A DNA stretch of 64,000 nucleotides, taken from assembly GCA_016285645.1 (NCBI GenBank), contig JAEERC010000045.1:1-64000 (forward strand), written 5' to 3'. Under the pieces are notes generated by a model. That model worked only from the letters and a program-made list of their open reading frames with translations, made no database searches and was not told where the DNA came from. Shown piece by piece: positions 4,940 through 64,000 of this stretch. The position numbers were made by a program, and so were the translations under genes. The first letter of the stretch is position 1. Every line of letters starts with the position of its first letter. This DNA is from Clostridiaceae bacterium (GTDB lineage: Bacteria > Bacillota > Clostridia > Oscillospirales > Acutalibacteraceae).

Positions 4940-5854
4940 ATGAAACGAACAACCTCAGTTCTCGCAGTACTGCTCGCGCTTCTTACGGCGCTCAACGTCA
5001 CCGCATTCGCGGCGGGCGGCTCAGGCGGCGGCAACAATCCGCTCACAATCGATTCCGTAAAAGTCGGCGAAGACGATCTCACGGCGGAGTCCAAAATCTC
5101 CGGCAATTCCGAAATAGTGCTTACTTTCTCGAACAATGTCACGGAAGACACCGTCTGGGACGGCAACCTCGTTCTGATAAGAGTTGAGGATTCCGAAAAT
5201 AACGCTGTGAGCGCAACCGTCTCCAAAGGCACCGAAAAAAACCAGATTTCCGTAACTCTCGGCGGTCTCGCAAAGGGCAGCTACACCCTTTACGCGGGCG
5301 CGGATATCAAAGCAAAGAACGGCAACACTCTCGGTGAGGAAAAGCCATATCCGTTCTCAGTCAAGGGCGAAGGCTCGGGCACCGGCGGCGGCAACAATCC
5401 TCTGAGTCTTGTTTCGGTCAAAGCGAATGACGCCGACCTTGAGGGCGCGGAGCTTGAAGCAAGCGGCAAGATAGTTATCACTTTTGACCGCGGTATGACC
5501 GAAAACCAGGCGGCAAACTTCGAGCAGATAGGCATCTATGACAAAGACGGCAAAAAAGTTGAAGGCGTTACTTTCTCCGATTTCACAAAGGACGATGACG
5601 GCAACAGCTACACCGAACTTTCCTATGAGAACCTTACCGGCGGCGAATATACCCTCAAGCTCGGCAAGGGCCTCAAAGCAAACAACGGAAAAACGCTCGG
5701 CGAAGACAAGGCAATTAACTTCACCGTAAAAGCTGAAGAAGAGCCCGAGGAGAAAACCATTCTTGATAAAATAGTTGATTTCTTCAAAATGATTATCGAT
5801 TTCCTCAAGAACGCATTAAACAAAGTCCTCTCCCTCATAGGTGTTACCCTCTGA
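4940..5854 (+). CDS. Exported protein with two SbsA-Ig domains and an amphipathic C-terminal tail
   Basis: This 304-residue protein has a signal peptide cleaved near TAFA-AGG and two similar Ig-like domains (about residues 32-135 and 150-255). Each opens with a Gly-Gly-Asn-Asn-Pro-Leu stretch followed by a VSVKANDADL-like strand. The C-terminus, IVDFFKMIIDFLKNALNKVL, is a hydrophobic amphipathic helix rather than a charged-end anchor. Similar tails end five other exported proteins in this window. The start lies one base after the previous stop with RBS aaaggaaa, so it is the last gene of the transporter operon. A terminator follows. Function unknown. Confidence 0.82.
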   Translation: MKRTTSVLAVLLALLTALNVTAFAAGGSGGGNNPLTIDSVKVGEDDLTAESKISGNSEIVLTFSNNVTEDTVWDGNLVLIRVEDSENNAVSATVSKGTEKNQISVTLGGLAKGSYTLYAGADIKAKNGNTLGEEKPYPFSVKGEGSGTGGGNNPLSLVSVKANDADLEGAELEASGKIVITFDRGMTENQAANFEQIGIYDKDGKKVEGVTFSDFTKDDDGNSYTELSYENLTGGEYTLKLGKGLKANNGKTLGEDKAINFTVKAEEEPEEKTILDKIVDFFKMIIDFLKNALNKVLSLIGVTL

Positions 5855-6366: not shown

Positions 6367-9300
6367 TCAGCAGATTGATGTGAGGAGGTCGGCTATTGCC
6401 TTGCCGAGGATTTTTTCGATGAGTTCGGCGAAGAAGGCTTTGAGGCGGTCAAAGAAGCCGTTCTTTACCTTGACGCTCTGGATTTTGGTTGTGTCGAGGG
6501 TGTTGCCGTCTTTGTCAATAACCTCGGCATAAATGTTGTAATCCTCTGTCGGGTCTTCGACTGTGTAGCTTTCGCCCGTGCCGACATCCTCGCCGTTTAC
6601 GAACCAGTGAATCTCCGCGCCCTCGGGCAGGCTGGAGGCGTCCGCGGTGTAGGTCACATCTTCCCTGTAGCCGATTTCGCTGTTCTCTTCATAATTCTCA
6701 ATCTGAATTGAGGCTATGTTCTCATAAATCGGCTTGATTGTAATGTCGCTTGTGCCGAGGGTGTATTCCTCCCACTCGCCTGTGTATCCCGCTTTTTCGG
6801 GAACGGCAGGTTCGGTTATGCTTTCATCTTCAACAGTGAATGTTACCTTTTCAACCGTTTCGCCGTTTTCGTCAACGAAGGTCGCTGTATATTCAATCAC
6901 CGTAAATTTGCCGTTGATTGTTACATCTTGGGCGGGCATTGTAGCGGGGATTTCGTCAACCCAGGCGAAAGTGTAGCCTGCTCTTTCATCAACCTCGGGC
7001 TCTGTTATATTGCCGCCGAAGGGGATTGTTTCGTTTTTATATGATTCTCCGTCAACCTTCCATGTGAGTTTATAATCAATGGGGGTTTCGGTATAAGTCG
7101 CCGTGTAAGTCGCGTCACCCGTTACCGGAACGATTGAGGGTGTCCACGCGAGGAACGAATATGTATATTCCGCAGTTGCTTCTTTTGTCGGCGTTTCGCC
7201 TGTATATGCAGGAGTTTCACCGTATGGAACCTGAACGCTCTGAAGCCCGGCGCCGTCATCATTGACGAACTCTACGGTGTGTTTGTCTTTAGCAAAATTC
7301 GCAACCAGATTGCGGTCACCCGTTACGGGGAATGAATATTTTGCGTTTGTGCTGACTTCAGCGCCGTTTTCCGTCCAATTGACGAAACTGTAATGATCGT
7401 TTGACAATGCGGTAACTGTTGCGTTTTCCCCGTAGTTATATGTTCCGGCTCCCGAAACCGTGCCGCCGTCCGGAAGATTCGCCGAAACCGAAACGCTCTT
7501 GACCTGAAGTTTGAAATTTGCGACAAGATTGCGGCTTTGTTCAACCGTGAATGAATACTTCGCGTTTGTGCTTACTACAGAGGTGCCTTCTGTCCAGCTG
7601 ACAAAATCATAACCTGTTTCCGGCGCAGCGGTTAAAGCAACATCCGCACCTTTGTAGGTCTTGCCGCCGCCCGTTATTGTGCCGCCGCCGGTCGGGTTTG
7701 CCGTTACGGTTATTGTCAGAGGATTTGTTATGATTACATTTACTGCGGGGATTTTTTCATCCGCGGTAACATCATACACCAGGTAAACATCGCTGCCTGT
7801 TTCAAGCGGATCTATAATATAGTTTGCCGGTTCAACTATTTCATTGCCGTTCTCTGTAATTAAGCTGCCTTTAATCCACAGCGCGCCGTATCTTGTGCCG
7901 CCTTCGAGCGTCACAAAGCTGTCGCCGGAAACGGTAAAGTTTTCTTCATCTGAAAAATACAGACCTCTGCCATATGTGCCTGTGCATCCGGATTCAACCG
8001 AACTGTCTGATATTGTCAGCGCAGACGCGCAGAAAATGCCGTATTGATCTCCCGTGCCTTCGGCATAAACAGAGCTGTTTCTGATATCGATATCATCGGC
8101 GATGATGCCGGTGCCGCCGGAGTCACCACCAGTGGCTGTGACGTTGATATCCGCGCCGTCAATCAGCAAATCACAGTTTATTAAAATACCGTTTTTTTCT
8201 GCCGTTATTGAAAGTTTTCCGTCGCCGGTTAAGGCAAGGCCGGAAGATGCCGAATTGTTCACCATCCAGATACCGCGCTCCGCGGGACCGAGGGTATTTT
8301 CACCCTCAAGGTTGATTGTGATGTTAAACTCCTTGTTTTCAACAAGAATGTTTGAATCGTGTGTGCCGCCGGACTTATAAGACTGCGTGCCGGTGATTGT
8401 CGCGTTATTGAGATAAAGCGTGCCGCCCTTGCCGTCAGTGTCGGGCACGAATTTAACCGAGCCGCCGTCGGTGACTGCAATGCCGTCAAGCGCATCGAGT
8501 GAATCCGCATTGTCGCTCGTTACCTGATTGCCGCCGACCCAGAGGGGAAATTCAGCATTTTTCGGCGGCCAGTTTGCAAATAATATTTCATCCGCGGAAA
8601 TCTGCCGTCCCTCTTCATCAAGGTTGAAGCCTTTGAGGTGCGGATAATATACACAATAGGTTTCATTTTCTTTTACAAGCCAGTTTTCATCTGTAAAGCC
8701 CGTCATATTATCAAGAGCGCTTTCACCGGTCATCTGCCCGGTAGTGAGGCCTGTGACATCTGTGACGGTGCCGTCATTATTTACTCCGACAGCATTCCAG
8801 TTGTTACTTTCACCTGCTTCGGTAATCACTGCCACATCCCTGTCATAATAACAGTTTGTGATTACACCGCTTCCTTCCGGATATCCTTCCCATTTGCCAT
8901 TATAACCTGCCACGCCGCCGGAATAAGAAGTTAATCGGTCAACATCACCCGTTGCAGTTACCGTCACGTTGCCCGCGTTATAGCAGTCGATAACTTTATA
9001 CTCATTGTTTCCGACAACGCCGCCGGTGCGAACATATGCGTCGGTATAGTATTCATAATTGTTTTTAATTGCCGTTACGCTTACATCACCCGAGTTATAG
9101 CAGTTCTGAATCGTGCCGACATTTTCGCCGATAAGACCGCCGGTATAGGTTAAGGAATGGACAAATTCACCTTTTACCGTAACATTGCCCGTGTTAAAGC
9201 AGTTGTCAACATAGTTGACGGTTGAGCCCGCCAGACCGCCGGCGTATGATTCGGAAACGACGCCGGTTGATTCCGCGGTCACATCACCCGTATTACAGCA

Positions 9301-11298
9301 GCCCGTAAGATTGTCAACAGGATTATCCCCGATTATTCCGCCGACATAGATTTCACCGGTTGCCCATCCTGCGAATTCTGTTTTTACCGTTGCATAAACA
9401 TCGCCTGCGTTGAAACAGTTTTTAATCCCGCTGTACATAATTTGACTGTTTCCGGTTGAAACTATGCCGCCGGCATAAGCATGGGCAGCAGTATAATTAT
9501 TGCCGGATGTTGCTATCGCTGCTGCCGTTGCCGTTATCTTTCCCGTGTTATAACAATCTGTGATAACGTCAACCGATATATAGGGTTGACTGATAATAAT
9601 TAAATCAAAATGTCCAACAATACCGCCGGCATATGCATAGTAATAATATCCCGTTGACGTTATGTCGCCCGTATTATAACAGTTGTCAACTGTTCCGTTT
9701 GTGACAGTTCCGGCCACACCGCCGGCGCAGCCTCTGGCTGAAACCGGACCTGTGTTCCGGCAGTTAATGACCTGACCGGGCAAATAATACGACATCATTG
9801 ACACGCCGGCATTTTCACCGACTAAGCCGCCGACAGCGTCTTCGCCGGAAACACTGCCTGTGTTATAGCAATTCTCGATTATTCCGCCATAGTTATATCC
9901 GGCCACGCCGCCGACATGTTTTTGTCCTGTTATGCTTCCGCCTTCAAGACCGACATTCCGGACTTTACCGCCTTCGTCGACATAACCGAAAAGGCCGGCG
10001 TAATCCTGTTGCGGGTTGTTGAAAGTCAGCCCGGTTATTTTATGACCGAGACCGTCAAATGTGCCGGTGTATCGATGGCCATAATCATTACCGATAGGAG
10101 TCCAGTCGTTCGCCTCGGCCGAAGCGGAGGCGTCGATATCCGCCGTAAGCACACCGATAAGACCCGTTTCGCCGCCGTTTACGCGGGAGGCGAATTCCTT
10201 CAGCTCCGCGTAATCTGATATCTCAAACGCATCCACAGTGTGAGTGCTCTCATAGGTTTCACCGTCTATAGTGACAGACGCTTTGGCTTCCGTGTAGCCG
10301 GGAACAGCTCCGTCCGGATTGGTATGAGTAAACGTGACTCTGTCCGCCCCGCCTGTTTTTTCGGCTCCGCAGCCGGCGCAGTATGCGGTGTATGTCGGGT
10401 GACTTACATCATCCCAGTTCCAGACCGGTTCGCCGTAATTGTGAGTATAGGAGAAGGTGCCCGAGGCCGATGTTCCCTGAACGGTAAAGGTGTCTCCGAC
10501 ATCATTTACATTGATATAAGAAGAACCAGAAGTAAACTTAGCTTTGTCAAAATTACAGGGTATTGTAATCGAAGTGAGTTCTGAACAACCGTAGAAAGTA
10601 TAACCGCTGAAATCTGTAACGGAGTTGCTGCTGAATGTGACCGACTCAAGGTTACCGCAGCTGGCAAATGTGCCGTTCAGTGACGGAACATTCGCGCCGA
10701 TTACCGCGGACTGAAGATTGGTACAGTTGCGGAAAGCATAAGTTCCCAAAGTAGTTACATTGTCCGGAATAACCACTGATTCAAGGTTTTGACAGTCTTG
10801 AAACGCATAATTGCCTATAGTTGTAACACCTTGCGGAATATCTATTGAAGACAAATTTTTGCATCCGTAAAAAGCATTTACTCCTATGGTTGTCAGTGCG
10901 CTGCCTTCACCGAATGATACAGATGTAAGATTAGTCATGTTTTGGAATGCCCGAACGCCGATTTTTTTGACGGTATCGGGAATTGTAATGCCTGTAACAC
11001 CCGAAAACATAACGTCATTGAACGCACCGTCTCCGATTTCTATAACGATGTAATCACGATCATCAAGATGAAGAACGGACGGTATGGCTATGTTGCCGGA
11101 AATACTCACGGCTGCGTCAGCCGGCTCAGAGCCGGGGATAATCCTTACGCCGGTGCTGCCTTCGAGAATTTCATAACTCCACTTTATACCATCAACCTCA
11201 TCGAACTCCGCGCCCGCCGTAACGGGAGCCGCTGCGCACACGCCCAGCGCCATAATAACGCTGAGCAGAATTGATAAAATCCTCTTGCCTGTTTTCAT
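6367..11298 (-). CDS. Giant exported LRR/GLUG/InlB-repeat surface protein
   Basis: The 1643-residue protein starts with a signal peptide (about residues 1-30, ending TAGA). About residues 85-255 carry BspA-type leucine-rich repeats (pattern LTSVSF...IGVNAFYGCKNL). Residues about 425-820 are GLUG-type repeats (GGLVGENAG...NCYNTGSV). About 910-1155 looks like a beta-helix or strand-repeat region. About 1190-1520 are Listeria/Bacteroides InlB-type repeats (YTFAWVD, GYTGEWEEYTLG). Residues about 1535-1605 form an Ig-like module, followed by the amphipathic tail FFDRLKAFFAELIEKILG and a final Cys. No LPXTG motif is present. Such architectures occur in adhesin-like surface proteins of gut bacteria; a role in binding host or matrix is inference. 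RBS aaggagga precedes the ATG. It is a single-gene unit with its own promoter. Confidence 0.88.
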   Translation of the reverse strand: MKTGKRILSILLSVIMALGVCAAAPVTAGAEFDEVDGIKWSYEILEGSTGVRIIPGSEPADAAVSISGNIAIPSVLHLDDRDYIVIEIGDGAFNDVMFSGVTGITIPDTVKKIGVRAFQNMTNLTSVSFGEGSALTTIGVNAFYGCKNLSSIDIPQGVTTIGNYAFQDCQNLESVVIPDNVTTLGTYAFRNCTNLQSAVIGANVPSLNGTFASCGNLESVTFSSNSVTDFSGYTFYGCSELTSITIPCNFDKAKFTSGSSYINVNDVGDTFTVQGTSASGTFSYTHNYGEPVWNWDDVSHPTYTAYCAGCGAEKTGGADRVTFTHTNPDGAVPGYTEAKASVTIDGETYESTHTVDAFEISDYAELKEFASRVNGGETGLIGVLTADIDASASAEANDWTPIGNDYGHRYTGTFDGLGHKITGLTFNNPQQDYAGLFGYVDEGGKVRNVGLEGGSITGQKHVGGVAGYNYGGIIENCYNTGSVSGEDAVGGLVGENAGVSMMSYYLPGQVINCRNTGPVSARGCAGGVAGTVTNGTVDNCYNTGDITSTGYYYYAYAGGIVGHFDLIIISQPYISVDVITDCYNTGKITATAAAIATSGNNYTAAHAYAGGIVSTGNSQIMYSGIKNCFNAGDVYATVKTEFAGWATGEIYVGGIIGDNPVDNLTGCCNTGDVTAESTGVVSESYAGGLAGSTVNYVDNCFNTGNVTVKGEFVHSLTYTGGLIGENVGTIQNCYNSGDVSVTAIKNNYEYYTDAYVRTGGVVGNNEYKVIDCYNAGNVTVTATGDVDRLTSYSGGVAGYNGKWEGYPEGSGVITNCYYDRDVAVITEAGESNNWNAVGVNNDGTVTDVTGLTTGQMTGESALDNMTGFTDENWLVKENETYCVYYPHLKGFNLDEEGRQISADEILFANWPPKNAEFPLWVGGNQVTSDNADSLDALDGIAVTDGGSVKFVPDTDGKGGTLYLNNATITGTQSYKSGGTHDSNILVENKEFNITINLEGENTLGPAERGIWMVNNSASSGLALTGDGKLSITAEKNGILINCDLLIDGADINVTATGGDSGGTGIIADDIDIRNSSVYAEGTGDQYGIFCASALTISDSSVESGCTGTYGRGLYFSDEENFTVSGDSFVTLEGGTRYGALWIKGSLITENGNEIVEPANYIIDPLETGSDVYLVYDVTADEKIPAVNVIITNPLTITVTANPTGGGTITGGGKTYKGADVALTAAPETGYDFVSWTEGTSVVSTNAKYSFTVEQSRNLVANFKLQVKSVSVSANLPDGGTVSGAGTYNYGENATVTALSNDHYSFVNWTENGAEVSTNAKYSFPVTGDRNLVANFAKDKHTVEFVNDDGAGLQSVQVPYGETPAYTGETPTKEATAEYTYSFLAWTPSIVPVTGDATYTATYTETPIDYKLTWKVDGESYKNETIPFGGNITEPEVDERAGYTFAWVDEIPATMPAQDVTINGKFTVIEYTATFVDENGETVEKVTFTVEDESITEPAVPEKAGYTGEWEEYTLGTSDITIKPIYENIASIQIENYEENSEIGYREDVTYTADASSLPEGAEIHWFVNGEDVGTGESYTVEDPTEDYNIYAEVIDKDGNTLDTTKIQSVKVKNGFFDRLKAFFAELIEKILGKAIADLLTSIC

Positions 11299-26014: not shown

Positions 26015-27976
26015 ATGACTGAGTTCAGACGCTTCACCGCTGCGTTCCTCGCGGCTGTTATGCTGCTGTTCTGCCTGCCCTTCGCGGCTTCGGCGGACGA
26101 GGTGAAGCCCGACTACAATGTGGTTATAAAAACGGGCAAATACGAAGGCGCCGAGTGGACGGAGTGCACCGCTTTCGCGCCGGGCGACACTGCCGACGTG
26201 CGCGTATATCTCGGCACGGATTTTGACTTCGGTTCATTCGAATCCATCTTTTTCTTTGACAAGGCGTTCTTCACCTCGCCCTACGGCACATATCATAAGG
26301 ACAATTCCGTTCTGAACCCGTACTATAACGGCAGTTCCGATGCTTACAACACCGTTCAGAGCGAGAACGCGAACATATCGAACCTTCTTGTATCCTCCGG
26401 TCAGATTACCGAGGAGGAAAGTGAGAGATACGGCTGGATTTACTCCTCATACGAGCGCTCGTTTTCCGACAACTCCATACCGCTGAACATTGAAGAGTAT
26501 TTCTATGAATTTGAACTTACCGTAAATGAGAACGCGCAGGGCGGCGGATGGGTAAAAGCCCTGCCCTCAACCTTCTATAAAACGGGCGATTCCGTGAAAT
26601 ATCTTTTCAACCCGACCAAGGCGGAAGGTTATGACGATATGTCAATCGTGTGCAACCCCGTTATCACAAACACCCACGCGGTAATCGGCGACGCGGCTTC
26701 CCCCGAAACGGTCACAATCACCTTTGACGCAAACGGCGGAACAATAACGGGCGAAGCGAGCACCGAATACAACTACGGCGCGCTTGTGACTGTGCCCGAG
26801 GTCACCGCTCCCGAAGGAGTGACCTTCCTCGGCTGGTATGACACGGATGATGTTCTTCTCGAAAACACTGATGAACTGCTTGCGCTTGAGGATGAAACAT
26901 ACAAAGCGAAATACTCCTGCACGGCGACTTTTGCAGCCGACGGCGAGGTTGTTGAAACAATCCCCTTCACCTCGGGCGACACTCAGCTTGAAAATGTTCC
27001 CGATGTTCCGCCTAAAACGGGCTATGAAGGCAAGTGGGAAGATTACACTCTCGGCAGTGAGAATATAACAGTAAACGCGCAGTACAGCGTGATTGAGTAT
27101 AAAGCGAAATTCGTAGCCGACGGCACGACCGTAGCGGAAATTCCCTTCACCGTGAACACGCAGAGCATCACGCCTCCCGCCGTTCCCGCAAAAGCGGGCT
27201 ATGAAGGCAAGTGGGAAGATTACACTCTCGGCAGTGAGAATATAACAGTAAACGCGCAATACAGCGTGATTGAGTATAAAGCGAAGTTCGTCGCGGACGG
27301 CATAGTCGTAGCGGAAATTCCCTTCACCGTGAACACGCAGAGCATCACGCCTCCCGCCGTTCCCGCAAAAGCGGGCTATAACGGCAAATGGGAAAGTTAC
27401 ACCCTCGGCACTGAGAATATAACCGTAAACGCGCAGTACACAGCGATTGAGTATAAAGCGAAATTCGTTTCCGACGGCGTGACCGTAGCGGAGATTCCTT
27501 ACACCGTGAACACGCAGAGCATCACGCCTCCCGCCGTTCCCGCAAAAGCGGGTTATGAAGGTAAGTGGGAGGATTACGCCCTCGCAATCGGCGGAATTAC
27601 CGTAAACGCAAAATACACGGTTATTTCCGCGCTCTCCGTTCCCGCGAGCGGGCAGACGGTTAATTACAGGAACAAGGTTAAAATGACCGCCGCCGCAAAC
27701 GACATTCCCGACGGATATCATGTTGCCTGGTATGACGAAAACGGAAAGGTATCCGACAGCGAAACGCTCCTGACGGGCGAACTCAGGGCGGACGCGACAT
27801 ACACCGCCAAGATTGTTGACGAGGACGGCAATGTGCTCAAAGACGCCGAAGGCAATGATGTGAGCAAATCGGTTACAATAAAGGTAAACGCCGGCTTCTT
27901 CAAACGCCTTATAGCGTTCTTCAGATGGCTGTTCTCGTTCATCACGGGCGGTCAGCCGACAGTGGTACTGAAATAA
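26015..27976 (+). CDS. Exported repeat protein with Ig module and amphipathic tail
   Basis: The 653-residue protein has a signal peptide ending AASA near residue 28 and an N-terminal domain (about 30-225) of unknown family. An InlB-type repeat opens VTITFDANGGTITGEAS near residue 231, followed by about four 59-residue repeats, each with a GYEGKWEDYTLGSENITVNA-like stretch. An Ig-like module (about 536-625) precedes the tail FFKRLIAFFRWLFSFITG. No LPXTG motif is present. Co-transcription with the LCP gene suggests a cell-wall-related role, which is inference. RBS aaaaggagtg is strong. Confidence 0.88.
   Translation: MTEFRRFTAAFLAAVMLLFCLPFAASADEVKPDYNVVIKTGKYEGAEWTECTAFAPGDTADVRVYLGTDFDFGSFESIFFFDKAFFTSPYGTYHKDNSVLNPYYNGSSDAYNTVQSENANISNLLVSSGQITEEESERYGWIYSSYERSFSDNSIPLNIEEYFYEFELTVNENAQGGGWVKALPSTFYKTGDSVKYLFNPTKAEGYDDMSIVCNPVITNTHAVIGDAASPETVTITFDANGGTITGEASTEYNYGALVTVPEVTAPEGVTFLGWYDTDDVLLENTDELLALEDETYKAKYSCTATFAADGEVVETIPFTSGDTQLENVPDVPPKTGYEGKWEDYTLGSENITVNAQYSVIEYKAKFVADGTTVAEIPFTVNTQSITPPAVPAKAGYEGKWEDYTLGSENITVNAQYSVIEYKAKFVADGIVVAEIPFTVNTQSITPPAVPAKAGYNGKWESYTLGTENITVNAQYTAIEYKAKFVSDGVTVAEIPYTVNTQSITPPAVPAKAGYEGKWEDYALAIGGITVNAKYTVISALSVPASGQTVNYRNKVKMTAAANDIPDGYHVAWYDENGKVSDSETLLTGELRADATYTAKIVDEDGNVLKDAEGNDVSKSVTIKVNAGFFKRLIAFFRWLFSFITGGQPTVVLK
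27088..27620 (+). repeat. 177-bp tandem coding repeats
   Basis: Near-identical 177-bp units (59 codons) start at about 27091, 27268 and 27445. The first two differ at only a few positions. Their in-frame length means that recombination would change copy number without breaking the gene. Confidence 0.9.
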
Positions 27977-28050: not shown

Positions 28051-31000
28051 TTAAAAGGCAAACGAGAAAACTTTTCTGATAACCGCGATTAAGCGCCAGA
28101 GCCAGGAGATGTTGAGGCGGTTCGCTATGAAGCTTACGAGTCTGCCGAGAAGCGAGGCGGCGTCGTTTGCCGCTTCGGAGTTCTTTTCAATGGCGAAGTT
28201 GTCAACTCTTTCTGCTTTGCCGTCCTTTACTGTGTAGGCGTCAAAATAGAGCATATCGCCGTCTGTGCGCACCGAAACAAACATCGGGGCGTCGGGGGTG
28301 AATTTAACCTCGGCGTCGGGGAAGGAGGAATCCTCTTTCTCCGCGTGGGATCTCTTTACGCCGCCCGAGCCGGGAACCACATAGACGGTGCCCTGAGGAT
28401 TGATCTTTGCCGTGTAGTCAAGCCCGTTGTAGGAAACGGTCTTTTCCTTTGCGCTTATTTCAACGCCGCCGCTTATTGCGCCGCTTCGCCAGTAAACGCA
28501 TTCCCTGCCCTGAAGAACAAGGTCAACGCCGAGGCGTGAAAGCAGGGGCGAGAGCTGGGCTCTTACGCCCTTTACATCCTTGTCGCCGCTGTGGGCGCCG
28601 TTTGAGTAAATCGCGTTGGGAATAACGGCTATCTTCCATTTCGCATCGGAGGAGGAGATATCCTCCTCAATCCATTCAAGCTGCTCCGCGCTGAGTTTTT
28701 TGTTCTCAACATCGTTTGTGTTTATGACCGTGAAATGGATGTTGCCGTAATCGTATGAGTAGTAAACGCCTGTTTCGGAATCAGATGCGGTTGCGGGCAA
28801 GCTGAAGTTTTCGGCAACATAGCCGCCCGCCTTTTCCCTGCTGCCCGAAGAGGGCATAAAGAATTTGTTTGAGAAAAATTCCGAATTGACATTCAAAAGG
28901 TCTCTCCAGTGGTGGCTGTTTTTGGCGAGAGTTACCTGATTGCCGGCGGATACGATGAAGTTTGCTTCGGGCACGGTGTCAAACGCCGCTTTGAATGTGT
29001 CGTTCACAACGCCGTAGTGGGTCGGGTTCTGACCCTGAATGTCGGCTACCGCTATGAATGCGGCTTTGTCGCTGTCGTAATCGACCTCAATAACTCCCGG
29101 CTCGCTCCACCATCCGCGCGAGGCATCGCCCACGCGGTAGGAGTATTTGCCGCTCTCTGTGAAATTGACCGTCACGCAATGTCTTGTATATTCCTTTTCA
29201 AAATCGAGGAAGGCGATTATGCCGAGATCGGCGCCGGGATAACTGATAAACGTGCTGTCGGTATGCGATGAAACCGAGTCTATTCCGTATTCGGTGCCGT
29301 TTTCAAAATCGGGGTTTTCGCTGTAGTTTACAATCTGGATATCGGTGCCCGTCACGCTGTATTTTGTAAGCCAGGTGATATCCGCGCCGACCGGGCTTCC
29401 GCTCATTGTTATCGCTATATTTGAGGGCAGGCGGTAATTTTCAACCGTCGCCTCGACATCCTCGGGACCCGAGTATGTTATGGCGTAGGAACCGTCCGCC
29501 TGACGCATCGGGTTGTGGTCGATAACAAGGGTGCTGACCATCCAGCTTATTGTGTGACCCCACGCCTGGAACTGGCTGTCAACAAAGAACTCGTCGCCTA
29601 TGAGCGTGTCGAGTATATTGTCAAGTGACGAATATTTATCGGGCACAAGCGCTATGCCGAGCACGGAATTCACAAGGTTGAGAAGACTGTTGTCGCCGCC
29701 GAGAAGAGCGGTTGAAACCGCCTGTAAAATATCGCCCGTGAGAGCGAGCAGTGTGCCGTCCGGGAAGAGTTCGCCGGGGTTGAAATCGATGTTCGCGAGA
29801 ATCTCGTTTTTGACGAGATCTTCAACCACCGTTTCGCGCAGGAGGGCGAAGAATTCCTTCGCAAGCTCGCCGCTCTCAAATTTCGCGAGCACATCCTGAA
29901 CCATCGGGTCATCCTCGCCTATCTCGTCGCCGCCGTAATAGGCGAGAAGCATCATCTGGCCGAAATCGTCGAGAGTGGTCGGCCCCGTCGCGTTGCCGTG
30001 ACCCGACTGCTCGTAGAAGAGGGTGCAGGGCTTGTCGCTGAGTTCAAACGAAAGAAGCTTGTGAAGAATGGTTCTGACAAACTCCAGGCAGTAGTCGGGA
30101 TCGTTTATGTATCTCTCGTCAATCTGTTTTCCGATATCCTTTATCAAGCCCATAAGGTTCTGGCTGACGGTGAGTATTTCCACATCGCCGAGCGCCAGAC
30201 CGTTTGTGCCGAGGGCGTCAACAATAATCTTTTCGAGGTCTATGTTCTTTTCTTTGAGGAAGCCGAGAAGTCCGCCCGCCGCCTGAATCTGCGGGAAGTA
30301 GCTTTCAACAAGGCCGTCAACCGCGGAATAAGCGAAATCCTCAATGGTCTCGCCGAAGGTCATATCGTAGGAATTTGTGTATTTGAACGGCTGCTCATAA
30401 GTTATGGTCTCGCCGTTTCTCTCATAGGACAGCGGAGTGAGTTCATCGATGTCGTGGCTTACCATATTCATTGAGAAGTCACCGTCTGAATATGTGAACT
30501 CCGCGATTCTCATCATATTGGGATAACCCGTGATGGTGGATGAGAGCAGGTCGGTTATCCTCTCGCCGTTGTCGTTTACATAGGAAGCCGTGTCGTGCGA
30601 GTGAAGGTGACCCGTGAAGGCGTAGTGAATACCCGCGTCGGCGTAGGTGTCGCAGACATATTCCCAGTTGTCTATGACGAAGGCGAAGAAGGTCGCCTCC
30701 TCAATATCCATATGCTGAACGAGGTTGTGGTGCTGCATAAGGATTATCTGCAAGCCGTTGTCGTTGGCGTACTGCGCCTGCTCCTTTATCCAGTCCATAA
30801 GGTCGTCGCCTATCATACCGTCGGTAAGGTGCTCGTTTTTCTCCGAGCCGTTGTCGGCGGAATACTTGTTTGAGTCAACGGCGATGAGCATATAGTCATC
30901 GTTTAACTTCCACGAATAGGAGAGATATCCGCCGTAGTTGCCCGCCGCGGGCTTGAAGCGCGAAACGCAGCCGGGGTCGCTCTCGTCATAGCCGAAGTCC

Positions 31001-31506
31001 TTATACAGGATTTCAAAATCGGTCGGCTCGGTTATTCTGGCGGGAACGGCTTTTTCGCCCGTGTAGTCTGTGGCGTTGCTGTTTCTTATATCGTGGTTGC
31101 CGGGCACAACAAACACGGGAATATCGGTCTCCGCCTCAAAAGCGGCGAATTTTTCCGCCATCTGTTTATGGGATTCATACTCGCCGTCCTTCGTGATATC
31201 ACCCGGGATGAGCACGAAGGCGCTGTTGTTGCGCTTTGCCTCCTCAAGATAATGCTCCGAGAGGTCGAAGGCATTGTCCAGAATGGAGTTCGCAAGCTCC
31301 ATCTGGCGGTGGGTGGTTCGCAGATAAACCTGCCAGGCGGGGCTGTTGTAATCGTAGAGATTATCCGCGAGGTAGTGCATGTCCGAGAACACGGAGAAGG
31401 TTATTGTTGAACTCGCGGCGCTCGCGAACAGCGGGACACAGGAGAGTACCAGCGTAAGCGCTGTGAATACGCAGAGCCCTTTTATGAATTTCGAGTAGCG
31501 TTTCAT
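28051..31506 (-). CDS. Exported double metallophosphoesterase with degenerate second domain
   Basis: The 1151-residue protein has a signal peptide (ends FASA near residue 30). The first calcineurin-like domain is intact: D42-x-H44 (SDMHY), G102-D103 (PGDITKDGE), G136-N-H-D (PGNHDIRN), H259/H260 and G299-H-L-H (TGHLHSHD). A long helical and beta middle region follows. The second phosphoesterase-like domain (about 810-1075) has DIQGQNP, SAGNQVTLA, PSSGSREKAGGY and LQGRECVYWRSG where active enzymes have D-x-H, GD, GNHD and GHxH, so it has probably lost its metals. The end SWLWRLIAVIRKVFSFAF is an amphipathic tail. Substrate is unknown. It follows the GH3 gene by 12 bases. Confidence 0.87.
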   Translation of the reverse strand: MKRYSKFIKGLCVFTALTLVLSCVPLFASAASSTITFSVFSDMHYLADNLYDYNSPAWQVYLRTTHRQMELANSILDNAFDLSEHYLEEAKRNNSAFVLIPGDITKDGEYESHKQMAEKFAAFEAETDIPVFVVPGNHDIRNSNATDYTGEKAVPARITEPTDFEILYKDFGYDESDPGCVSRFKPAAGNYGGYLSYSWKLNDDYMLIAVDSNKYSADNGSEKNEHLTDGMIGDDLMDWIKEQAQYANDNGLQIILMQHHNLVQHMDIEEATFFAFVIDNWEYVCDTYADAGIHYAFTGHLHSHDTASYVNDNGERITDLLSSTITGYPNMMRIAEFTYSDGDFSMNMVSHDIDELTPLSYERNGETITYEQPFKYTNSYDMTFGETIEDFAYSAVDGLVESYFPQIQAAGGLLGFLKEKNIDLEKIIVDALGTNGLALGDVEILTVSQNLMGLIKDIGKQIDERYINDPDYCLEFVRTILHKLLSFELSDKPCTLFYEQSGHGNATGPTTLDDFGQMMLLAYYGGDEIGEDDPMVQDVLAKFESGELAKEFFALLRETVVEDLVKNEILANIDFNPGELFPDGTLLALTGDILQAVSTALLGGDNSLLNLVNSVLGIALVPDKYSSLDNILDTLIGDEFFVDSQFQAWGHTISWMVSTLVIDHNPMRQADGSYAITYSGPEDVEATVENYRLPSNIAITMSGSPVGADITWLTKYSVTGTDIQIVNYSENPDFENGTEYGIDSVSSHTDSTFISYPGADLGIIAFLDFEKEYTRHCVTVNFTESGKYSYRVGDASRGWWSEPGVIEVDYDSDKAAFIAVADIQGQNPTHYGVVNDTFKAAFDTVPEANFIVSAGNQVTLAKNSHHWRDLLNVNSEFFSNKFFMPSSGSREKAGGYVAENFSLPATASDSETGVYYSYDYGNIHFTVINTNDVENKKLSAEQLEWIEEDISSSDAKWKIAVIPNAIYSNGAHSGDKDVKGVRAQLSPLLSRLGVDLVLQGRECVYWRSGAISGGVEISAKEKTVSYNGLDYTAKINPQGTVYVVPGSGGVKRSHAEKEDSSFPDAEVKFTPDAPMFVSVRTDGDMLYFDAYTVKDGKAERVDNFAIEKNSEAANDAASLLGRLVSFIANRLNISWLWRLIAVIRKVFSFAF

Positions 31507-56747: not shown

Positions 56748-58271
56748 ATGAAAAACCGAACCGCAAAAGGTATTATTGCCGTTTTTCTCGCGCTCGTTCT
56801 TCTGGCAGCGCCCGTGCTCGCCTGTATGGCGAACGCCTATGAGGCGACTGTTCCGACAATTGAAATGCGCGGCTTTATGAGTTCGACAATCTACGCCGTG
56901 GAAAACGACCCCGAGAGCGAACAGCTCTGGCCGCCGACCACGGATAAAATCCTCGGACTTGTCAAAAACATTCTGGGCCCGCTCGCGAAGCTCAGCGTAA
57001 ACCGCGACTGGGACGCCTTCGCCTATGTGCTCGCGGGTGAAGTGAACAATATGCTCGGCGACCTTTGGCTCGACAACAACGGCGATTTACCCGACAACAG
57101 CGGCGTTTATATGCCCTACCCCGCCGAGGACGAGGTTGTTAAAGACGGCGAATACGAGTTTGTTTTCGACTGGAGAATAGACCCCTACGAAGCCGCCGCC
57201 GGTCTCAACGATTTTGTTCAGTACATCCTCGAAGCGTCGGGCAGCGACAAGGTAAACATCATCTGCCACAGTTACGCGGGCATTGTCGTGACCTGCTATT
57301 TGGAGGAGTACGGCTGCGACGCGGTCAGGAGCGTGTGCTACAACTCCACCGCCGTTTACGGCGCGGGCTTTACTAAAGATATTATCAGGGGCAAGCTCTT
57401 TGTGGGCGGCGATTCCGCGCTTTCCGGCTCGGGAGCCGAATCGGTCATCGCCTACCTTCTCGGCGCTTTTTCAAACAATCAGTACGCAACAATAATCGAC
57501 ACGGTTATTGATATGGTCTCAAAAGCGGGGCTTATGGATTTCCTGTCGAATTTCCTCAACAAACTGCTTCTCAATTCAAGCGACATCCTTTACAAGGAGA
57601 GCGTCGCTCCCCTGTTCGGTCTCTGGCCCGCAATCTGGGCGATGATTCCCGACGAGGATTTCGAGGAGGGTCTCGACTACATTTTCAACGATGTTCTTGC
57701 CGACACGGGCGAGGATTACTCGGGACTTTTTGAGAAGATTGACCACTACACCGAAAGCGTGCGCGAAAAGCGCGAGGATGTTCTCAACACAATAAACGAC
57801 AACTGCAATTTCTATGTTATATCGCGCTACGGCTACTCCGCCCTGCCGCTGACCACCTCCTGGCACACGATGACGGACGGCGTGCTTGACACCAAGGCGA
57901 CCTCCTTCGGAGCCACGGTTTCCGACTATGATGTAACAGACCTTTTCGAGGTCACAAACGAGTATATCTCGCCCAACGGGCAGATTGACGCGTCAACCTG
58001 TCTCTTCCCCGAGCAAACCTGGTTTATCAGAAGCGCCTCGCACATACAGCACTTCCCCGATATCCAGAAACTGGCAAAAGAACTTGTGTGCTATGACGGT
58101 CAGGCGACGGTTGAAACCTTTGAGCAGTACCCGCGTTTTATGTATTACAGCGCCGCTACGGATTCGCTCATCGCCGACCCGGGCATTTCCGCGCCGATGA
58201 CTTTCATTCAGAAATTCGTTGAGTTCTTCAAGGAATTTTTCGCGCTTATCTTTTCAATTTTCAAGAAATAA
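56748..58271 (+). CDS. Exported alpha/beta-hydrolase (lipase-like) with amphipathic tail
   Basis: The 507-residue protein has a signal peptide (about 1-30). Its probable nucleophile elbow is C173-H-S175-Y-A-G178 within VNIICHSYAGIVVTCYLEEY, a variant of Gly-x-Ser-x-Gly in which Cys replaces the first Gly. The arrangement (DWRIDPYEAAAGLNDFVQYI before it) recalls PGAP1/LCAT-type lipases that act on membrane lipids. Candidates for the catalytic His lie in SHIQHFPDIQKL near the end. The C-terminus FIQKFVEFFKEFFALIFSIF is an amphipathic helix like those of five other proteins here. Substrate unknown. Monocistronic, with its own promoter and terminator. Confidence 0.78.
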   Translation: MKNRTAKGIIAVFLALVLLAAPVLACMANAYEATVPTIEMRGFMSSTIYAVENDPESEQLWPPTTDKILGLVKNILGPLAKLSVNRDWDAFAYVLAGEVNNMLGDLWLDNNGDLPDNSGVYMPYPAEDEVVKDGEYEFVFDWRIDPYEAAAGLNDFVQYILEASGSDKVNIICHSYAGIVVTCYLEEYGCDAVRSVCYNSTAVYGAGFTKDIIRGKLFVGGDSALSGSGAESVIAYLLGAFSNNQYATIIDTVIDMVSKAGLMDFLSNFLNKLLLNSSDILYKESVAPLFGLWPAIWAMIPDEDFEEGLDYIFNDVLADTGEDYSGLFEKIDHYTESVREKREDVLNTINDNCNFYVISRYGYSALPLTTSWHTMTDGVLDTKATSFGATVSDYDVTDLFEVTNEYISPNGQIDASTCLFPEQTWFIRSASHIQHFPDIQKLAKELVCYDGQATVETFEQYPRFMYYSAATDSLIADPGISAPMTFIQKFVEFFKEFFALIFSIFKK

Positions 58272-62176: not shown

Positions 62177-64000
62177 TTATTTGGGTTCAATAACCACGGT
62201 GGGAACTCTCTTGAGCCACTTTCTGATAAGGGCGATAAGTCTCAGGAAGATGTTGCTTACAACGGTGATCTTTACTGTTTTTACCATATCGCTGCCGGTT
62301 GAATCCTTCGCGATGTTACCGTTGCGGTCAACAACCCTGAATATAATCGTCTGTGTCTCTTCAAGAGCGTCGAGAGGAACTATTATTTCCTTGTCGTTGG
62401 CGTTGGTTTCATACGCCTTGGAGCTGGTGATTGCCTGAATCTTGTAGCCGTTGGGCATAGCGTAGGAGTTTGCCTTGACGGTGACAATGGTACCGTATCT
62501 TACAGAGGTATCTACGGGAACATTGAGGGTGACGCCTATGAGAGCGCCGCAGTCATCGCAGATGCTGTCGCTGTTTCTGTCGGTGTGGTTGACGGGATTG
62601 ATGGCGATCTCTTTTTCATCGCTTGTGGTGATAGTCTCACCGCAGACGGTGCAGCAGACCTTTGTAACATAGGTGCCCTTTTCAGAGCAGGTCGCGTTCT
62701 TTGTAATGATATCCTGAGCCTCACCCGGAGTGTGAGCGAGCTTGGGAGTGTTGCGGGTTACGGGAGTGGTGATATTAAATGACTGAAGCTGGCGTTCCTC
62801 AAATACCGCGGTGTAATCCGCACTGCCTTCCTTTTTGCAGGTGGCGGGAACAATGTTGCTTGTTTCAACCTTCGCCTTGACTTCGTCCTTGTGGGCGGAA
62901 TCGTTCTTGCAGGTAAGAGTGGCAACATAGTCGTTGCCTGCCCACGCGCATTCGGCGTTTTCATAATCCCAGTCGTGGCCGATCGGGTCGGTCGGGTTGG
63001 TTGTGTATTTGATGTGGCACATTGAGCACTCGTATTCGGAGTAGCCGCCTTCGGTGCAGGTGGGATCGGTTACGGTTTCCTCATAGATGTGGTCGATTAC
63101 GGGCAGATATGTTGTTTTGCTTTCGCCGCAGTCGGGGCAGTACCAGTATTCCTCGCCCGATTCCGTGCAGGTTGCGGGAGTTGTGTATGTTGTGGCGTTC
63201 GCGTGTTTGATTGCGGGAAGCACCTCAACCGAATCTTCATCAATATCTCCGCAGACTTCGCAGTAGTCGTACTCTTCGCCGTCCTCTTCGCAGGTCGGGT
63301 CAATCTTTTCGTGCTTTGTGAACTTGTGGCCGTTTGCCGCAACCTCATCAAAGTGGCCGGACTCAAAGCCGCAGCCCTCAACCGTGCAGTACTGATATGA
63401 GTAGCCGACATCCGTGCAGGTGGGCGGGACAGTTTCGGTTTCGATTGTGTGGGTTTCGCTCGCCTCAACCTCAACCTCTCTGGTTTCACCGCAGTTGTTG
63501 CAGGTGAAAACAGCTGTGCCGCCGCCTTCGGTGCAGGAAGCGGGTGTGGTGAGTTCCCAATCGTGACCTGTCGCGGGAAGGATTTCCTTGAGACCGATTT
63601 CCTCGCCGCAGACCGCGCACTTATTTACTTTGTAGCCGGGTTCTGTGCAGGTCGGCTCCTTTAAATCTTCCTCTATTACATGAGCGTTGGGATCCGAGTA
63701 AACAATCTGTGTAATGGGCTCGCCGTCGGCGTCAACGATGGGAGCGCCGACCATAACCTGGTTGCCTTCATCGTCAACAACGGGCTCGCCGTCTTTATTG
63801 ATAACGGGCTTGCCGTTTTCGTCGAGAATAAGATTTCCGTCCTCGTCAAGAGCGGGAGCGTAAAGGGGCTCCTTCTCCTCACAGTCGGTGCAGAAAAGCT
63901 GATTGAAGCCGTCGTTTGAGCAGGTCATTGCAACAACGGTGACATACTCGGTGTGGTAATAAGTGGCTGTTGAGTCATCGGAAAGAACGGTGTGAACGGG
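62177..64000 (-). CDS. Exported cysteine-repeat protein with Ig module and amphipathic tail (partial)
   Basis: The frame is open to the right edge of the window, so the N-terminus (and any signal peptide) is missing; an internal Met at 63928 is not taken as the start. The visible 607 codons contain many repeats of the type TCTEPGYKVNKCAVCGEE, each with a C-x2-C pair and often followed by LPATGHDW. They resemble small zinc ribbons of clostridial surface proteins; metal binding is untested. An acidic stretch near 63790-63890 repeats Asp-Gly-Asn/Glu units. An Ig-like module (about 62270-62560) and the tail IFLRLIALIRKWLKRVP close the protein. LPATG occurs only inside the repeats, not as a terminal sortase signal. 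Confidence 0.8.
   Translation of the reverse strand, partial: PVHTVLSDDSTATYYHTEYVTVVAMTCSNDGFNQLFCTDCEEKEPLYAPALDEDGNLILDENGKPVINKDGEPVVDDEGNQVMVGAPIVDADGEPITQIVYSDPNAHVIEEDLKEPTCTEPGYKVNKCAVCGEEIGLKEILPATGHDWELTTPASCTEGGGTAVFTCNNCGETREVEVEASETHTIETETVPPTCTDVGYSYQYCTVEGCGFESGHFDEVAANGHKFTKHEKIDPTCEEDGEEYDYCEVCGDIDEDSVEVLPAIKHANATTYTTPATCTESGEEYWYCPDCGESKTTYLPVIDHIYEETVTDPTCTEGGYSEYECSMCHIKYTTNPTDPIGHDWDYENAECAWAGNDYVATLTCKNDSAHKDEVKAKVETSNIVPATCKKEGSADYTAVFEERQLQSFNITTPVTRNTPKLAHTPGEAQDIITKNATCSEKGTYVTKVCCTVCGETITTSDEKEIAINPVNHTDRNSDSICDDCGALIGVTLNVPVDTSVRYGTIVTVKANSYAMPNGYKIQAITSSKAYETNANDKEIIVPLDALEETQTIIFRVVDRNGNIAKDSTGSDMVKTVKITVVSNIFLRLIALIRKWLKRVPTVVIEPK

Follow-up and report, generated by a model that had tools for sequence, protein, structure and literature searches.

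Amphipathic C-terminal tails on exported proteins of a Clostridia genus as probable in-plane membrane anchors

Phe-rich amphipathic tails at the C-termini of exported proteins are a real, lineage-bound and genome-wide feature of the uncultured Clostridiaceae bacterium analysed here, and they probably serve as in-plane anchors to the outer leaflet, forming a general device in one Clostridia genus. How exported proteins of monoderm bacteria are anchored to the membrane is generally explained by a lipobox, a sortase signal or a membrane helix. Anchoring by a C-terminal amphipathic helix is known from single enzymes, the classic exported enzyme held in this manner being PBP5 (DacA) of E. coli.

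In the proposed mechanism, a cleavable signal peptide, which is seen in the sequence, would export the protein, and its last 15-30 residues are computed to form an amphipathic helix. This helix would be embedded in the cytoplasmic membrane at its outer leaflet, the Phe-rich face immersed in lipid and Lys and Arg at the polar side. The enzyme or binding protein would thereby be kept at the cell surface, and neither a lipid nor sortase nor a transmembrane segment would be needed. The device would be carried by about half of the sampled lipobox-free signal-peptide proteins, in the form of a duplicated Ig + tail module and of separate tails on esterases and phosphoesterases. By analogy, the tails are taken to work as the C-terminal helix of DacA does, and we infer both their binding to the outer leaflet and that it is the reason for their retention.

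Methods

The window is the whole stretch of DNA that was analysed, bases 1-64000 of contig 60 of a 2.63 Mb genome. Sample 1 consisted of 20 stretches of the same genome and the window, two of the 20 stretches having been picked for adjoining the window or for holding paralogs of the window hydrolase P0001 (see below). The tail score is defined here as the highest sum of hydrophobic moment plus mean hydrophobicity that any 18-residue segment within the last 40 residues attains; its threshold of 1.1 was fixed on sample 1, and sample 2, 20 more stretches of the same genome, was fetched afterwards. Open reading frames and signal-peptide classes were called by simple scripts of our own, not by SignalP or Prodigal. 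The 'secreted' class comprises proteins with a signal peptide and neither a lipobox nor another membrane helix. The counts leave out genes that a stretch edge may have truncated, as well as proteins whose signal-peptide call was weak.

Tailed proteins of the window

Six exported proteins of the window end in such helices. The lipase/LCAT-like alpha/beta hydrolase P0001 (507 aa, 56748..58271, + strand), identified as exported by its signal peptide, has conserved S175, D377 and H432 residues that constitute a candidate triad. Its tail FIQKFVEFFKEFFALIFSIFKK (58203..58268, + strand) was delineated by the tail score and an AF2 model, which predicts a helix at residues 486-506 with a mean pLDDT of about 47-56, downstream of a disordered linker. 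An exported Big_5 (bacterial Ig-like) protein of 304 aa (4940..5854, + strand) ends in the tail ILDKIVDFFKMIIDFLKNALNKVLSLIGVTL (5759..5851, + strand), and an exported metallophosphoesterase of 1151 aa (28051..31506, - strand) in WLWRLIAVIRKVFSFAF (28054..28104, - strand).

The C-terminal ends of the other three are formed by the Ig + tail module. These include an exported Flg_new protein (26015..27976, + strand), in which the Ig-like module (approximately 27623..27895, + strand; model residues 54-144, from an AF2 model and fold comparison) stands ahead of a tail beginning with FFKRLIAFFRWLFSFI (27896..27973, + strand); an exported LRR_5/GLUG/Flg_new protein of 1643 aa (6367..11298, - strand) with the tail FFDRLKAFFAELIEKILGKAIADLLTSIC (6370..6456, - strand); and the C-terminal portion of an exported protein of 991 aa (62177..64000, - strand), the gene of which crosses the window edge, with the tail IFLRLIALIRKWLKRVPTVVIEPK (approximately 62180..62254, - strand). 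The frame of the last gene inside the window is 62177-63928 (- strand), and its full reading beyond the edge gives 991 aa with a signal peptide. Residues 394-443 of the 26015-27976 protein show a weak match to DNA gyrase A models (E about 6e-6), perhaps a low-complexity or coiled-coil similarity.

An earlier note on this DNA, made from the sequence alone, had quoted the C-termini of the proteins at 4940, 28051 and 56748, which are present letter for letter, and had attributed similar helices to the three proteins with the Ig module, as is indeed the case for 6367-11298, 26015-27976 and 62177-63928. Signal peptides, claimed for all six, were called in 6/6 by our script, that of the 62177 protein only when read past the window edge.

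Prevalence and taxonomic distribution

A score of at least 1.1 was observed in 20 of the 39 secreted proteins of sample 1 vs 1 of the 153 'cytosolic' ones, and in the held-out sample 2 in 7/17 secreted vs 3/104 cytosolic proteins (Fisher p = 2.9e-5). Pooled, the two samples give tails in 27/56 secreted vs 4/257 cytosolic proteins, where the secreted set includes at least five tail-less apparent lipoproteins (window 1861 and 37647, L021:9602, L023:17825 and L121:19038), the 27 tails include L017:4914, which lacks amphipathic character and was probably called in error, and the tail of L024:5385 was missed owing to a proline. An enrichment of tails in the secretome, for which the earlier note had proposed a test, is borne out in the sampled stretches, the held-out part agrees, and the phenomenon is more extensive than that note had described. 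Extrapolation from 27 tails in 645 kb or from 7 in 269 kb suggests roughly 70-110 tailed proteins in the genome.

Stretches of 20 other genomes of the genus were found to hold 4 tailed proteins among 15 secreted vs 4 among 128 cytosolic ones. The corresponding values are 1/18 vs 7/178 (p = 0.54) for stretches of 20 genomes from other families of the order and 0/10 vs 3/98 for five genomes from sister genera in the family. This genome thus shows the trait strongly, and the other sampled members of the genus show it less so; in the neighbours it was not seen. On the contig of Ruminococcaceae bacterium isolate RUG13829 that holds a P0001 relative, all three signal-peptide proteins called on the fetched stretch score above 1.1, one of them having the textbook tail NFFERLIQMILNFFAKLFGR. 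A profile of diverse tails (A4) matched 12/13 genomes of the genus and 2/19 others; this is weak evidence, since the rows of the profile were partly drawn from the same genus genomes.

Physical character of the tails

Hydrophobic moments were compared with a shuffled background, as suggested in the earlier note. Over the last 40 residues, 21 of the 27 tails lie at or above the 95th percentile of their own shuffles, as do 5/120 cytosolic C-termini and 2/29 tail-less secreted proteins; the tails thus show the character, expected of in-plane anchors, of an amphipathic helix beyond composition. Phe makes up 13.1% of the tails vs 3.8% of cytosolic C-termini and 3.8% of the bodies of the same proteins, and Lys and Arg are retained. 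The additive cost of membrane insertion, as estimated here, has a median of +5.6 in the tails, compared with 13.2 in cytosolic C-termini and -2.2 in the best segments of membrane proteins. Most tails are therefore neither soluble-like nor membrane-spanning, their cost falling between those of cytosolic C-termini and membrane segments, and a role as transmembrane anchors is rejected for most of them. The earlier statement that the helices are too polar for ordinary membrane anchors holds for most (median +5.6 vs -2.2) but not for a few borderline tails with costs of 1.5-2.3, far below those of DacA and DacC (11.0). These lowest-cost tails may span the membrane, a point against in-plane anchoring.

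In a hand alignment of 11 tails of the P0001 family, the 10 positions on one face of the helix are hydrophobic in 11/11 sequences; at the 12 remaining positions the figure is 0-55%. A strict pattern built on the tails matched 9/56 C-termini of the secreted proteins of this genome (two of the nine come from sample 2 and have the Ig type of tail), 0/257 cytosolic C-termini and none of the protein bodies in any set. The net charge from the helix start to the C-terminus ranges from -2 to +4 with a mean of +1.1. The amphipathic, Phe- and Lys-rich nature of the tails would fit the earlier proposal that they are cleaved off as antimicrobial-like peptides; this proposal is poorly supported and extremely improbable, given that the mean charge is so low and that the helix follows the last Ig strand directly, leaving no linker between the two.

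A motif search on 25 tails gave a score of 207.1, compared with a mean of 188.4 (sd 4.1) in 40 class-preserving shuffles, none of which (0/40) reached 207.1; this null preserves the hydrophobic pattern but not the local composition. The tails have a shared sequence preference beyond the hydrophobic pattern, which is more than a purely physical anchor needs and counts against simple anchoring. As the shared motif exceeds all 40 shuffles, a reader of the tails is possible. It is conceivable, if rather doubtful, that the tails form a dedicated C-terminal targeting system of one genus, recognised by a reader of its own and more than adhesive helices, by which very roughly 70-110 exported proteins in each genome would reach the outer leaflet alongside the lipoprotein and sortase routes. 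An unlikely alternative is that a dedicated partner reads the tail for sorting or processing, as with PEP-CTERM, GlyGly-CTERM or LPXTG, the membrane affinity of the tail being incidental. The motif score would fit such a signal, as would the position of 25 of the 26 Ig-module tails read, within 37 aa of the stop; against it stand the high diversity of the tails, their variable distance from the C-terminus, a copy 322 aa upstream of the stop and a motif null in which local composition is not preserved.

Relation to other anchors

The GDPD family is a natural experiment on tail vs N-terminal anchoring. A tail is present in 3/3 members that clearly have a cleavable signal peptide (own L122, L305, L307) vs 0/5 members with a long N-terminal hydrophobic anchor (p = 0.018). 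Members with an F-rich N-terminal helix are tailed in 0/6 cases, L014:1146 of this genome being counted as GDPD only by its likeness to L302, and the ambiguous L316, whose N-terminus resembles a signal peptide, is tail-less. Among cytosolic forms 2/18 reach 1.1, inside or just past the domain end. GDPD L280, L299 and L300 (L299 being re-read as L321) and the alkaline phosphatases L259, L262 and L271 were left out for a wrong or unrelated frame.

Proteins with a lipobox are tailed in 1/18 cases vs 27/56 for lipobox-free secreted proteins (p = 7e-4), where the exception is probably a miscalled lipobox and the lipoprotein set includes a few cytosolic-looking proteins. By class, all the 27 tailed proteins are devoid of a lipobox Cys, and the tails are not those of lipoproteins. 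Tails and other anchors are near-exclusive.

Among the 27 tailed proteins, no LPxTG-like motif was matched within 50 residues of the C-terminus, and PF00746 has three matches in the whole genome. Sister genera have some LPXTG-like ends, but a replacement of LPXTG by the tails is unsupported because most of the genomes examined have few PF00746 matches.

Among the three roles proposed in the earlier note, tethering to the outer leaflet is the best supported, since the tails are in-plane in character, rare on lipoproteins, present on GDPDs with a cleavable signal peptide and absent from anchored ones. The prediction of the P0001 tail as a separate helix beyond a disordered linker is also in favour of the anchor. 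Points against it are GDPD L316, the tail-less paralogs L003 and L006 of P0001, the weaker 4/15 in the rest of the genus and the DacA-type enzyme of this genome, which has a membrane helix.

The Ig + tail module

The tails are of two kinds, a homologous Ig + tail module and unrelated tails attached directly to enzymes. The Ig module spans about 90 residues and has an Ig-like fold according to the AF2 model and fold comparison, with the helix directly after the last strand. When the Ig + tail model was compared with other folds, its Ig part could be superposed on Ig-like chains (Z near 8); such an arrangement is common and is hardly informative on the helix. No family of Pfam or NCBIfam matched more than 2/24 or 1/24 module members, respectively, at E <= 0.01, and the module is not described by either database.

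The module helix is predicted by AF2 with a pLDDT near 90 and is followed by a short strand. It may be partly packed on the module, which is a further point against the anchor, and this would agree with a helix that serves the structure or oligomerisation of the protein by packing against the Ig module or a partner copy. Such a role has a very low probability for the tails at large, as the P0001 tail is a low-confidence helix beyond a disordered linker and as such tails occur on many unrelated proteins.

At E <= 0.05, a profile built from nine Ig-module tails (A1) matched 40 times in this genome, at least once in 35/36 further genomes of the genus (range 1 to 21) and, weakly (E >= 0.0025), in 5/23 other genomes of the order. 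Matches at E <= 0.001 outside this genome were found in 3/290 genomes of the class and 2/397 of the phylum, all in short frames, and in 0/5 genomes of sister genera in the family. The matches outside the genus (G202, G246, G266, G367 and G651) are weak and in short frames, and no tailed protein was seen in the ORF list of G367. Of 26 matches of this genome that were read, 25 lie at most 37 residues from the stop and one is internal, 322 residues from it. A signal peptide is present wherever the 5' end is complete, except for C22:64246, the frame of which begins without one. The internal module lies at G000:C5:73898-73972 (L171, L191) and is followed by about 320 further residues. The region G000:C5:56474-80706 (L190, L191) encodes five large Ig + tail proteins in about 25 kb and is apparently a surface-protein cluster.

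Enzyme tails and cargo types

Directly attached tails were found on alkaline phosphatase, phosphodiesterase, GDSL lipase and GDPD enzymes, on several metallophosphoesterases and on alpha/beta hydrolases. The P0001 family occurs in 36/36 other genomes of the genus and 1/23 other genomes of the order. Its tail is kept in most close orthologs despite sequence drift; distant members (L053-L062) score 0.73-1.10, and the paralogs L003 and L006 are tail-less. Alkaline phosphatases of the genus have short extensions beyond the LGYT..FP domain end, only one of which is above the tail threshold, and one homolog from the order has a polar end.

LRR and Ig-repeat proteins are also among the cargo. The earlier observation that enzymes and binding proteins alike carry the tail therefore holds, although the sampled glycoside hydrolases are tail-less. 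In the two samples of this genome, 12/16 ester and phosphoester hydrolases are tailed vs 0/7 glycoside hydrolases and wall enzymes (p = 0.0013), or vs 1/8 (p = 0.008) if the tailed CHAP-lectin protein L011:1266 is taken as a wall enzyme; the cargo classes were assigned with the data already known, and of the 29 tail-less secreted proteins 16 were scanned against Pfam. This contrast would fit a helix that attaches to the substrate or some other lipid surface (plant membranes, droplets or vesicles) and helps esterases to find lipids, instead of anchoring proteins to the cell. We consider this distinctly unlikely, as LRR and Ig-repeat proteins are tailed too, phosphatases use soluble esters, and five of the tail-less glycoside hydrolases may lack export by a cleavable signal, four of them beginning with an F-rich helix.

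An F-rich amphipathic N-terminal helix with no clear cleavage site, such as MLQKIIAFFTSVFAFLTSF, was observed on tail-less glycoside hydrolases and some GDPDs (L021:10001-12367, L021:14196-15560, L014:7025-8689, L022:10892-11809, L014:1146-1916 and L312-L315). In these proteins such a helix may be used at the N-terminus instead.

Comparison with known systems

Like the low-molecular-weight PBPs PBP5 (DacA) and PBP6 (DacC) of E. coli, their closest known counterparts, the tailed enzymes combine a signal peptide, a soluble catalytic domain and a C-terminal amphipathic helix of similar score, DacA scoring 1.48, DacC 1.43 and DacD, which has a short end, 0.74. DacA fits the strict pattern, and the spacing in its FFGKIIDYIKLMF is that of the tail FFDKLIAFFKGLF. 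Unlike DacA and DacC, the cargos here are not D,D-carboxypeptidases, many unrelated cargos occur per genome, an Ig + tail module has been duplicated, and the binding is deduced by us. A scan of seven window proteins gave no match to the Peptidase_S11 domain. The only DacA-type carboxypeptidase of the genome (L009:1405-2772, PF00768) has a membrane helix and a charged tail, not a simple amphipathic helix.

The tails resemble PEP-CTERM, GlyGly-CTERM and LPXTG ends in being C-terminal, lineage-bound and common to many unrelated exported proteins; they differ in mostly lacking a membrane-spanning segment and in having no conserved processing motif. The AmphipaSeeK study describes a set of 21 characterised proteins with in-plane membrane (IPM) anchors, in which Lys is over-represented (PMC1564421). 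Like the IPM anchors described there, the tails would be monotopic amphipathic helices, but unlike that set, the tail helix recurs across one bacterial secretome.

Significance

As an anchor, the amphipathic tail would be of a known kind. In the open-access literature (PMC) searched with limited wording, no description was found of its occurrence on about half of the sampled lipobox-free exports with an Ig + tail module of its own, nor of such tails in Clostridia. If the tails do anchor, a large share of the surface proteome of the genus would be called 'secreted' by standard predictors though it is cell-bound, and the anchoring route would be easy to test and could be moved to a reporter.
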